Below, in pieces: positions 7,601-9,349 of a stretch of DNA of 29,134 bases (position 1 is its first letter; every line of letters starts with the position of its first letter). The notes under the pieces were generated by a model, which was not told the origin of the DNA, did no database searches, and was given only the letters and a program-made list of their open reading frames with translations. The stretch spans positions 1-29,134 of the IMG/VR virus record IMGVR_UViG_3300047157_000048. One strand, 5' to 3'. Source of the DNA: a virus. A program made the position numbers and the translations under genes.

Positions 7601-9349
7601 GTTTGTTCTTGTTATATAAGCATATGTTTGGTAAGCAGAATAGTTATTACCATCCATTCCATCACCATTGCTAGTGCTACTATTCATTCCATTGTTTGGC
7701 ATATACACTAAATGACTGTCACCATTGTCATAACAATAATCTGTTGTTCCACTATTTAAAACTTTAGCTGTACCCCAGTCTATAGTTCTAGCAGAGTCAT
7801 CAACTTTACCAGCTCTAACTTCCACATAACCTGACGCATTTCTATATAAAACAACAATACTATTTAACACTTCATTATAATGCCAACCTTTAATATTAGA
7901 GTTAGTAGTATCAATATCGTATTGATTGTTGTTATAACTTACAGTTGAAACGATTGATTCAGCAGAACCAGTTGATGTTAGAATACAAGGATCACCAGCA
8001 GTAACAGTACCAGAAGCGTTTATAGTTACAGAACCACCTGATGGTGGTAAATTTTTTAAAGCAGAACCATCTAATGATGTTGGAACATTAGCATAATTAC
8101 CCATATAACCATGAGCAGAACACTGATAATAAAGTATAGGAGGTGTATCTTCATTTACTTCTATTTGTGTGTATGCTCCAGAAGAACCTGGAGTACCAGA
8201 TGTAGTTACATTTGTTGTATATGCTATAGTTTTTGCAGCATCTTTATAAAATAATAATGGGTGACCAGAGTTACTTGAGTCAGATTGGTCAAATTTATAC
8301 ACATATCCTGATGAAGATGTAACACCATCAGCACCTCCAAATGTTAAAGCTGGAGATTCAGCACCATCTATAAAATAACCACTACTACTACCATCACCAT
8401 TATAAGGATGACCAGATGTTTTACTTGCTACAGTTACAACAAATGTTACAGGAGCAGAAGACGAGCCATAATCTGTTGATATAGATTTAGCTGATATTAG
8501 TGTAGCATTTGTTATTGATTTATCATTAGCGTCAAGGTTGCCACCAAGCTGTGGGGTTGTATCTTCTACAACATTAGCCATTGGACCAGCTGGTCCTGTG
8601 TTACCAGTGTTGCCTTGAATACCTTGTATGCCTTGGTTACCTTGTGGTCCAGTATTACCAGTTGTACCTTGTGGTCCTTGAGGTCCAGTAGCTCCAGTTG
8701 CACCTCTTAAATTAGGAGTAGTTATAGTTTCAGTTGTTCCATCTGACATAGTATGAACAACATTATATGTATAGTTTCCGTTATCAGATGAAGCAATACT
8801 ACTTATAGATGTTCCTGTAGAACCTTGTGGTCCAGTATTACCAGTAGGTCCAGTATTTCCTGTGTTACCAGTTGTTCCTTGTGGACCAGTAGCACCTTGT
8901 GGTCCAGTAGGTCCTGTGTTACCAGTTGCACCAGTATCACCTTTTAAATTTTGAGATGTAAAAGTATGTGTACTATTATCAGAAAAAGTAAAGTTAAGCG
9001 TAATTGTATTGTTAGCATTATTTACAGCAGAAAAATTTGTTACAGTTAGTCCAGATGTACCAGCTGGTCCTGTTGGTCCTGTTGGCCCAGCTGGACCTTG
9101 AGCGCCAACACTACCAGTAGATCCACCAGCGCCAGAAGGACCAGTTGCTCCAGTTGGACCAGATAAATCAGGAGTTGTAATAGTATATGTAGCACCACCA
9201 ACGGCAGTAAAGATAATATCTATTGTACCATTACCATTATCTGTTTTAGTTACACCAGTAAATCCAGTAGTTACACCACTACCATCTAGGTCAGCAGTTC
9301 CAATAGAACCATCTGTTACCATTCTACCGTGTACTGTAGTAATAGCCAT
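4661..9349 (-). CDS. Giant collagen-like fibre or adhesin with cupredoxin-like domain
   Basis: 1562 aa, the longest gene here. Residues 37-256 hold three copies of a unit: a 28-residue strand module ending TPNLxG, then a Gly-X-Y collagen-like tract (64-100, 137-179, 216-256). [13 protein letters not shown] linker (265-276), common in marine phage fibres, leads to a domain at ~301-420 with His363, Cys410, His413 and Met416, the pattern of a type 1 copper site. The distal part (about 448-1555) looks like two repeats of one layout: an AGD start module, a long Gly/Ser/Tyr-rich beta region, and an FxGxA closing module. Collagen tracts in phage fibres form trimeric shafts, so this is probably a trimeric host-binding fibre. 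A strong AAGGAG site precedes the ATG, which overlaps the previous stop (TAATG). Confidence 0.85.
8090..8449 (-). other. Cupredoxin-like domain inside the fibre (residues ~301-420)
   Basis: The segment has a plastocyanin-like order: an N-terminal strand FVVTVAS, a YVYKFDQSD strand, then NSGHPLLF with His363 in the place of the first copper His (plastocyanin has a similar xHNxxF), and finally [11 protein letters not shown] with Cys410, His413 and Met416. The C-x2-H-x2-M spacing equals that of amicyanin, and the His-to-Cys distance of 47 residues equals that of plant plastocyanin as I remember it. All four ligands are present. Whether it binds copper is inference. Confidence 0.6.
8582..8704 (-). 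repeat. Collagen-like Gly-X-Y tract 3 (residues 216-256)
   Basis: Gly-X-Y triplets with an IQGIQG core, following strand module 3 (residues 189-216). It ends at GPAGP, after which the linker to the cupredoxin-like domain begins. Confidence 0.85.
8813..8941 (-). repeat. Collagen-like Gly-X-Y tract 2 (residues 137-179)
   Basis: Uninterrupted Gly-X-Y triplets rich in NTG, PTG and PQG. It follows strand module 2 (residues 110-137), which aligns with modules 1 and 3 without gaps over 28 residues. Confidence 0.85.
9050..9160 (-). repeat. Collagen-like Gly-X-Y tract 1 (residues 64-100)
   Basis: Gly recurs mostly every third residue ([13 protein letters not shown], then [16 protein letters not shown]). 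It follows strand module 1 (residues 37-64). The tract is Pro- and Thr-rich, as in other phage collagen-like shafts. Confidence 0.85.

Follow-up and report, generated by a model that had tools for sequence, protein, structure and literature searches.

The closest described counterparts of the fibre domain analyzed here are found among the cupredoxins and, with respect to its location, among the metal-bearing fibres of phages. Members of the plastocyanin/azurin family (PF00127) share with it the type of fold and the ligand order His...Cys..His..Met, and three of the ligands can be aligned by hhalign; the fibre domain differs in its longer inserts, in a Met that lies two residues nearer the His, in its position inside a phage fibre and in the absence of an hmmscan match to the family. 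Amicyanin, a free periplasmic electron carrier, has a C-x2-H-x2-M loop. This loop is common to amicyanin and the fibre domain, and amicyanin entries are among the Foldseek matches, but unlike amicyanin the fibre domain is a module of a virion protein. According to its entry title, 2vmj is a solved nitrite reductase loop mutant with a C-x2-H-x2-M type 1 copper loop. Rusticyanin and the N-terminal domain of Hyphomicrobium nitrite reductase (2dv6) are the closest structural matches of both models described below, from which they differ in sequence (16-20% identity), in their enzymatic or respiratory context and, in the case of rusticyanin, in loop spacing. Finally, the At5g54830-like family PF25489 matches relatives of the fibre domain, but not the fibre domain itself; At5g54830 is a plant cytochrome b561/DM13/DOMON protein that acts in a redox context.

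On the phage side, PMC11705849 describes iron sites in phage fibres, with HxH motifs in T4 gp37-like fibres; in the Ferrojan horse idea, an iron-loaded fibre docks to a host receptor. The likeness lies in a metal, predicted or shown, on a phage fibre; the T4 gp37-like iron sites are repeated HxH motifs between the strands of a trimer, while the domain studied here is instead cupredoxin-type. No repeated HxH motif was found in our fibre, which has a single HxH at residue 621; since this lies outside the domain, an HxH iron site was dismissed. In the open-access literature, none of the matches listed described a phage virion with a cupredoxin or a type 1 copper site, and the one paper considered as a prior report (PMC10792529) deals with unrelated proteins.

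The window, by which we mean the whole analyzed stretch of 29,134 bases, is a virus record from an uncultured phage and encodes the structural module of a short-tailed phage. PHROG matches identified a terminase, a head-tail adaptor, a major head protein and two tail proteins, along with a protein internal to the virion that carries an endolysin domain. As the major head protein is 62.8% identical to its counterpart in Pelagibacter phage Hodr, a SAR11-type host is plausible. Within the giant fibre (Table 1), Pfam Collagen (PF01391) matches three stretches of the N-terminal part, upstream of the domain (E 6.2e-18, best stretch 137-179). Together with the matches to PHROG tail-fibre families, this bears out the view of the initial annotation that the protein is a phage collagen-like fibre. 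Collagen was the only result of the Pfam scan of the fibre, and a second redox domain was not found. The cupredoxin-type domain is located mid-fibre, downstream of the collagen-like region, at residues about 296-423 of 1562. It had previously been drawn at residues ~301-420, corresponding to window positions 8090-8449, which was correct as to location but slightly too narrow in extent. A 742-aa tail protein (window 9810-12038, minus strand) resembles the N-terminal domain of the T7 tail fibre at a score below threshold (20.5 bits versus a cut-off of 25.2), and the giant fibre may attach to this protein.

Table 1. Positions in the window of the fibre gene, its domains and the residues discussed in the text
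Feature	Window position	Strand	Basis
Fibre gene, 1562 aa, collagen-like near N-terminus	4661-9349	minus	ORF; Pfam Collagen; PHROG tail-fibre families
Approximate collagen-like (Gly-x-y) stretch, residues about 76-278	8516-9124	minus	translation; Pfam Collagen
Predicted cupredoxin-type domain, residues about 296-423	8081-8464	minus	AlphaFold2 model; PDB matches; profile match 8096-8446
His314, conserved in one family branch	8408-8410	minus	translation; alignments
His363, first predicted copper ligand	8261-8263	minus	translation; hhalign; conservation
Cys410, predicted copper ligand	8120-8122	minus	translation; hhalign; conservation
His413, predicted copper ligand	8111-8113	minus	translation; hhalign; conservation
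Met416, predicted axial copper ligand	8102-8104	minus	translation; conservation

For structure prediction of the fibre domain, AlphaFold2 was given a 69-row alignment (A2), 4 fragments among 72 non-redundant rows having been removed beforehand. The resulting model is an eight-strand sandwich (pLDDT 90.7, pTM 0.85). When it was compared with the PDB by Foldseek, rusticyanins ranked at the top (E 1.1e-3 to 4.8e-3) with no match at E <= 0.001 (best 1.1e-3), and 48 of the 50 matches listed were cupredoxin-type by title; only a butyrophilin complex and a titin domain fell outside this group. After realignment with VIA, the first place went to Hyphomicrobium nitrite reductase (2dv6), which matched through its N-terminal region over 97 residues with an rmsd of 2.6 (Z 8.6). 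Each of the 50 VIA rows listed was cupredoxin-type by title, and they comprised copper nitrite reductases, laccases and other multicopper oxidases, rusticyanins, a purple cupredoxin and factor VIII, whose A domains are cupredoxin-like; Z was above 8 in only two of these 50 rows, a level at which VIA warns of a possible common arrangement. As an independent test, a Gallionellaceae relative that is 29% identical to the fibre domain was folded with its own 28-row alignment (A6) to a pLDDT of 95.0. This second model gave 12 Foldseek matches at E <= 0.001 (CueO at E 3.7e-4, rusticyanin at E 4.7e-4) and, upon structural realignment, 141 chains with Z >= 8, the best of which (Z 9.9) was the same protein that the fibre domain had matched with Z 8.6. 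The prediction is thus a Greek-key beta sandwich that matches solved cupredoxins, modestly for the fibre domain itself (Z 8.6) and with Z 9.9 for its relative, and a cupredoxin-type fold is the best reading of residues about 296-423. The plastocyanin-like strand order proposed from the sequence alone is in agreement with this predicted sandwich and with the cupredoxins that head its PDB matches.

Translation of the ORF confirmed His363, Cys410, His413 and Met416 at the positions assigned to them earlier. According to DSSP of the model, His363 (model residue 70) stands ahead of strand 72-75, Cys410 (117) closes strand 112-117, and both His413 (120) and Met416 (123) lie in the loop ahead of strand 125-128. 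The predicted arrangement is therefore that of a His before a strand, a Cys ending the penultimate strand and a His and a Met in the next loop. The outcome that would have argued against a copper site, a fold in which the four residues are separated, was not obtained, and in the model Cys410, His413 and Met416 are grouped around the last inter-strand loop. In line with the proposed ligand assignment, hhalign comparisons with seven PF00127 domains (alignment A4) matched His363, Cys410 and His413 to the His, Cys and His that are invariant in these plastocyanin-family proteins, with a probability of 77.3 when A2 was used and 89.4 with A3, an alignment from which L166 and L171 were removed and to which seven rows from earlier scans were added. 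The distance from the His to Met416 is shorter by two residues than that to the axial Met in the plastocyanin-like A4 rows, which fits the C-x2-H-x2-M loop of the 2vmj title and of amicyanin. In both models the axial Met is in register with Met148 of rusticyanin, a residue named in entry titles, as judged from the last aligned residue, whose distance from the Met equals that in rusticyanin (123+6=129 versus rusticyanin 154 for the fibre model, 109+7=116 versus 155 for the Gallionellaceae relative). The order and spacing of His, Cys, His and Met, together with their conservation in relatives, are consistent with the complete type 1 copper ligand set that the initial annotation had predicted, and loss of these residues in close homologues was not found: all four are invariant in a 14-sequence close alignment.

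The fibre contains six Cys, Cys410 among them, and C-x2-H-x2-M is present once. This motif occurred in 33 of 20,000 whole-protein shuffles and is conserved in the family, and a chance motif was dismissed as the main account. A further residue, His314, lies in an H-P/R-x-Y-like stretch of the first loop, and the branch of the family that keeps it includes some bacterial members. It is invariant in the 14-sequence close set and occurs in 76 of 76 viral rows, but one search pattern contained His314, and it is present in only 19 of 81 copies from pattern-free searches. A role of His314 as fifth ligand is not claimed.

At the sequence level, the domain matches the tail-fibre family phrog_30742 with E 8.3e-44. 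The isolated domain matched no Pfam family at E <= 1, so that the curated cut-off of PF00127 (Copper-bind) was not reached; none of the copper families of Pfam and NCBIfam matched it, nor did the At5g54830-like family PF25489, and NCBIfam and plasmid searches with the domain returned nothing useful. A PDB sequence search with the domain alone gave chance-level matches only, and with the family profile pseudoazurin 3tu6 (E 0.11) was ranked under an unrelated cerato-platanin entry (0.071). Among viruses, a first pattern scan yielded 18 loci with the domain, and in a second scan at least 584 were confirmed among the 599 stretches listed. By tblastn (E <= 1e-3), the domain was found in 55 of 50,697 phage records. 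As judged by sequence comparison, the domain is a real conserved unit.

The names of these 55 records refer to Synechococcus (25), Prochlorococcus (13), cyanophage (7), Methylophilales (4), marine (3), Pelagibacter (2) and one unnamed phage. Their copies are intact or degenerate, and a profile search of 25 of the 55 records gave 1 to 5 copies per record. The annotated proteins that carry the domain are tail fibres, the baseplate wedge gp7, virion structural proteins and hypothetical proteins. Any later segment of our fibre was matched in 9 of 162 domain-matching loci, a figure that overstates the difference because the loci are cut at their flanks, and several of them repeat one contig. This indicates that the module moves between unrelated backbones and, on the evidence of the sequences, the domain is a mobile module that recurs in unrelated virion proteins of cyanophages and pelagiphages. 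A predicted copper-site domain in a phage fibre, as put forward initially, is thus present, but it is not peculiar to this fibre and recurs in virion proteins of marine phages.

Joint conservation of the ligands was analyzed in 256 domains that cover both halves of the site, which were reduced to 169 at 98% redundancy. Cys was present in 153 of these, every one of which retained both His363 (153/153) and His413 (153/153), while among the 16 copies without Cys, His363 was kept in 5 and His413 in 3. The Fisher p-value for His363 versus Cys was 7.6e-14, but Fisher values overstate the association here because related sequences are not independent. His, Cys, His and Met were in register in 148 of the 169 non-redundant copies, and His, Cys and His in 153. 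The spacing C-x2-H-x2-M was found in 147 of the 153 Cys-bearing copies, Met being replaced by Gln in 2 and by Ala in 1 and lying one residue later in 3 (two of them read by eye from the flanks). Such natural exchanges of the axial Met for Gln have a precedent among blue copper sites, as in stellacyanin. The relation was also observed at 60% redundancy, where His363 was present in 44/44 Cys-bearing versus 4/11 Cys-less copies, and at 45% redundancy, with 20/20 versus 3/9 and both His kept in 20/20.

Because some of the search patterns contained Cys, a second count was restricted to phage copies retrieved by tblastn or by the profile; as the pattern scans used Cys410, His413 or Met416 in part, these pattern-free counts are the fair ones. 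The pattern-free set has 73 unique copies including the fibre's own, of which 42 are HCHM, 2 are HCH with Met one residue later and 1 is HCHQ; 57 of the 73 cover both sites, the others being degenerate, cut or split by the profile. Among the 57 non-redundant pattern-free copies, 45 have the Cys and all 45 keep both His, and His363 is present in 45/45 Cys-bearing versus 4/12 Cys-less copies (p 3e-7). One S-CAM4 copy (L238) has the Cys while the His three residues on is missing; the HMM divided this copy into two pieces, and it was therefore not counted. The site therefore behaves as a unit whose ligands are jointly kept.

Copies without the Cys are common (12 of the 57 pattern-free phage copies) and provide a built-in internal control within the same genomes. 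In 11 of the 16 Cys-less copies of the larger set, Asp takes the place of Cys, and opposite this Asp the 363 position holds Tyr (5), Lys (3), Arg (1) or His (2), i.e. Tyr, Lys or Arg in 9 of 11. We infer that an Asp facing Tyr, Lys or Arg may form another bond that substitutes for the metal at this one spot, and if these pairs are read in this way, positions 363 and 410 would be neighbours. Tandem copies are present in the gp7 baseplate wedge of P-HM2 (L023:2767-3408) and P-HM1 (L180:1261-1908), where a Cys-less copy (Lys/Asp) lies directly ahead of a copy with the full ligand set. Relatives of a copy from S-E7 that lacks the Cys occur in 279 phage records. Given this number and the frequency of such copies, copper is dispensable for the basic job of the module. 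The Asp-for-Cys copies favour a pinning role, because the fold seemingly needs something at this place, not always a metal.

True cellular members of the family exist, for example a domain on a 1,063,060-base contig (L132) as well as Gallionellaceae and gammaproteobacterial proteins. Within the genomes sampled, cells appear to carry the domain rarely: at E <= 0.001 and beyond the query genomes, matches were found in 0 of 60 genomes from the family of the Prochlorococcus single-cell genome and in 0 of 96 from the order of the SAR11 single-cell genome, each a sample of a larger group, and 0 of 99 genomes from the order of the Gallionellaceae genome matched beyond the query genome. A host-derived gene found no support in these sampled genomes. 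Against this, a scan of genome contigs gave 42 loci, of which 11 are titled Prochlorococcus and 2 Pelagibacter or Pelagibacterales. Neighbour genes were checked in 7 of these 13 loci (10 proteins, PHROG). The neighbours belonged to tail, head or connector families in L107, L108, L116, L117 and L136 and to unknown-function PHROGs only in L112, while the single tested neighbour in L122 had no PHROG. Most such loci are read as cell-caught phage DNA or prophage because their neighbours belong to phage PHROG families. In L107, a SAR11 single-cell contig of 274,960 bases, the domain is located at 263,554 beside tail-fibre genes, and this is possibly a SAR11 prophage.

A Bacteroidetes chromosomal domain (L270) matches PF00127 above the cut-off (E 1.4e-7) and is also hit there by the profile of the phage family (E 1.8e-4), which makes L270 a sequence bridge between the phage family and PF00127; L271 also matches PF00127. 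PF25489 matches 22 of 69 relatives at E <= 0.1 (best E 1.8e-8), one bacterial domain (L143:5596-5916) doing so above the cut-off, which suggests that this plant domain is a cupredoxin relative as well. The proteins encoded at four bacterial loci (L142, L143, L146 and L147) combine a hydrophobic N-terminus with one domain of the kind described here and a long C-terminal part that is probably helical, two such genes being consecutive in L143. These are possible envelope copper proteins.

Starting from the fold, the ligand order and spacing, the co-conservation of the ligands and the mobility of the module, all of which are computational observations, we consider the fibre domain to be a cupredoxin module that carries a type 1 copper site and serves as a metal-pinned structural or adhesion domain, with a probability of about 0.6. 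Judging from ligands and model, copper is probably bound, and its role would be stiffening or adhesion rather than electron transfer. Marine phages would insert the mobile module into fibres, the baseplate and other virion proteins, and copper would be taken up by it during or after lysis. The bound metal would pin the Cys/His/Met loop against the His363 strand; this pinning would stiffen the exposed end of the domain, and the stiffened domain might be a structural spacer or offer a surface for contact with the host envelope. The module occurs in many kinds of virion protein, and Cys-less copies persist alongside intact ones within one genome and, in gp7 of P-HM1 and P-HM2, within one tandem. 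This would also fit a relic, in which a cupredoxin fold has been turned into an Ig-like spacer that is metal-free in nature and keeps the four residues for packing. We regard this as unlikely, since His, Cys, His and Met are kept together among copies less than 45% identical (both His in 20 of 20 that have the Cys), and packing alone predicts neither this joint retention nor the change of Met to Gln in some copies nor the tendency of the ligands to be lost together.

The site might also bind a metal other than copper, for example zinc or iron, or its single Cys might be a redox thiol or a cross-link in the trimeric fibre. Cys-His sites can also bind zinc. Sequence cannot reveal the identity of a metal, and iron sites on phage fibres are described in PMC11705849; nevertheless, ligand order, loop spacing and fold match those of type 1 copper proteins, including the C-x2-H-x2-M loop of 2vmj, and the only HxH of the fibre (621) lies outside the domain, which makes such a site distinctly unlikely. 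PMC11705849 also contains a model of a metal-loaded fibre for iron, and the domain sits on adsorption proteins, so one could imagine fibre copper docking to a copper-handling receptor on the host surface in the manner of the Ferrojan horse. We hold this to be very unlikely, as the domain lies mid-fibre and is also present in the baseplate wedge and other virion proteins, not specially at tips. Electron transfer, for instance with surface or periplasmic redox proteins of the host during entry, draws on a fold and ligands that are those of electron carriers and on the PF25489 (At5g54830) matches of 22 of 69 relatives, but appears highly improbable for a fibre in which Pfam detected only Collagen and no second redox domain.

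If the metal-pinned module does bind copper, common ocean phages would bear an ordered transition-metal site of the electron-transfer type on their adsorption and baseplate proteins, phage entry would be linked to trace-metal chemistry, and virions would be countable copper ligands of seawater. It is a long shot that marine phage virions are copper proteins, every particle bearing several type 1 copper sites on its fibres and baseplate with which it would hold on to, or sense, the surface where the next host handles copper. The virion type 1 copper would then be scavenged from the lysed host or from seawater; such virions would do with copper what the Ferrojan horse does with iron, and they would make up a copper ligand pool of the ocean that has been overlooked. 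Even without copper, the domain is a recognisable mobile unit in numerous proteins of marine phages that are labelled only tail fibre, structural or hypothetical.

Some minor observations were made on related records and on the remainder of the window. In BFVD, four rows named beta-sandwich protein, from Pithovirus and Marseillevirus records, match the fibre-domain model at 22-27% identity. The deposit OQ414636.1 (L022) is titled Pelagibacter phage Baldr while its locus tags say Hodr, probably a labelling slip. In the window, a 220-aa ORF at 1221-1883 (plus strand) has a DnaA C-terminal helix-turn-helix domain (PF08299, E 1.7e-20) and adjoins an SSB gene at 696-1115. It is overlapped by a minus-strand gene at 1507-2544 of the calcineurin-like phosphoesterase / DNA repair exonuclease family.
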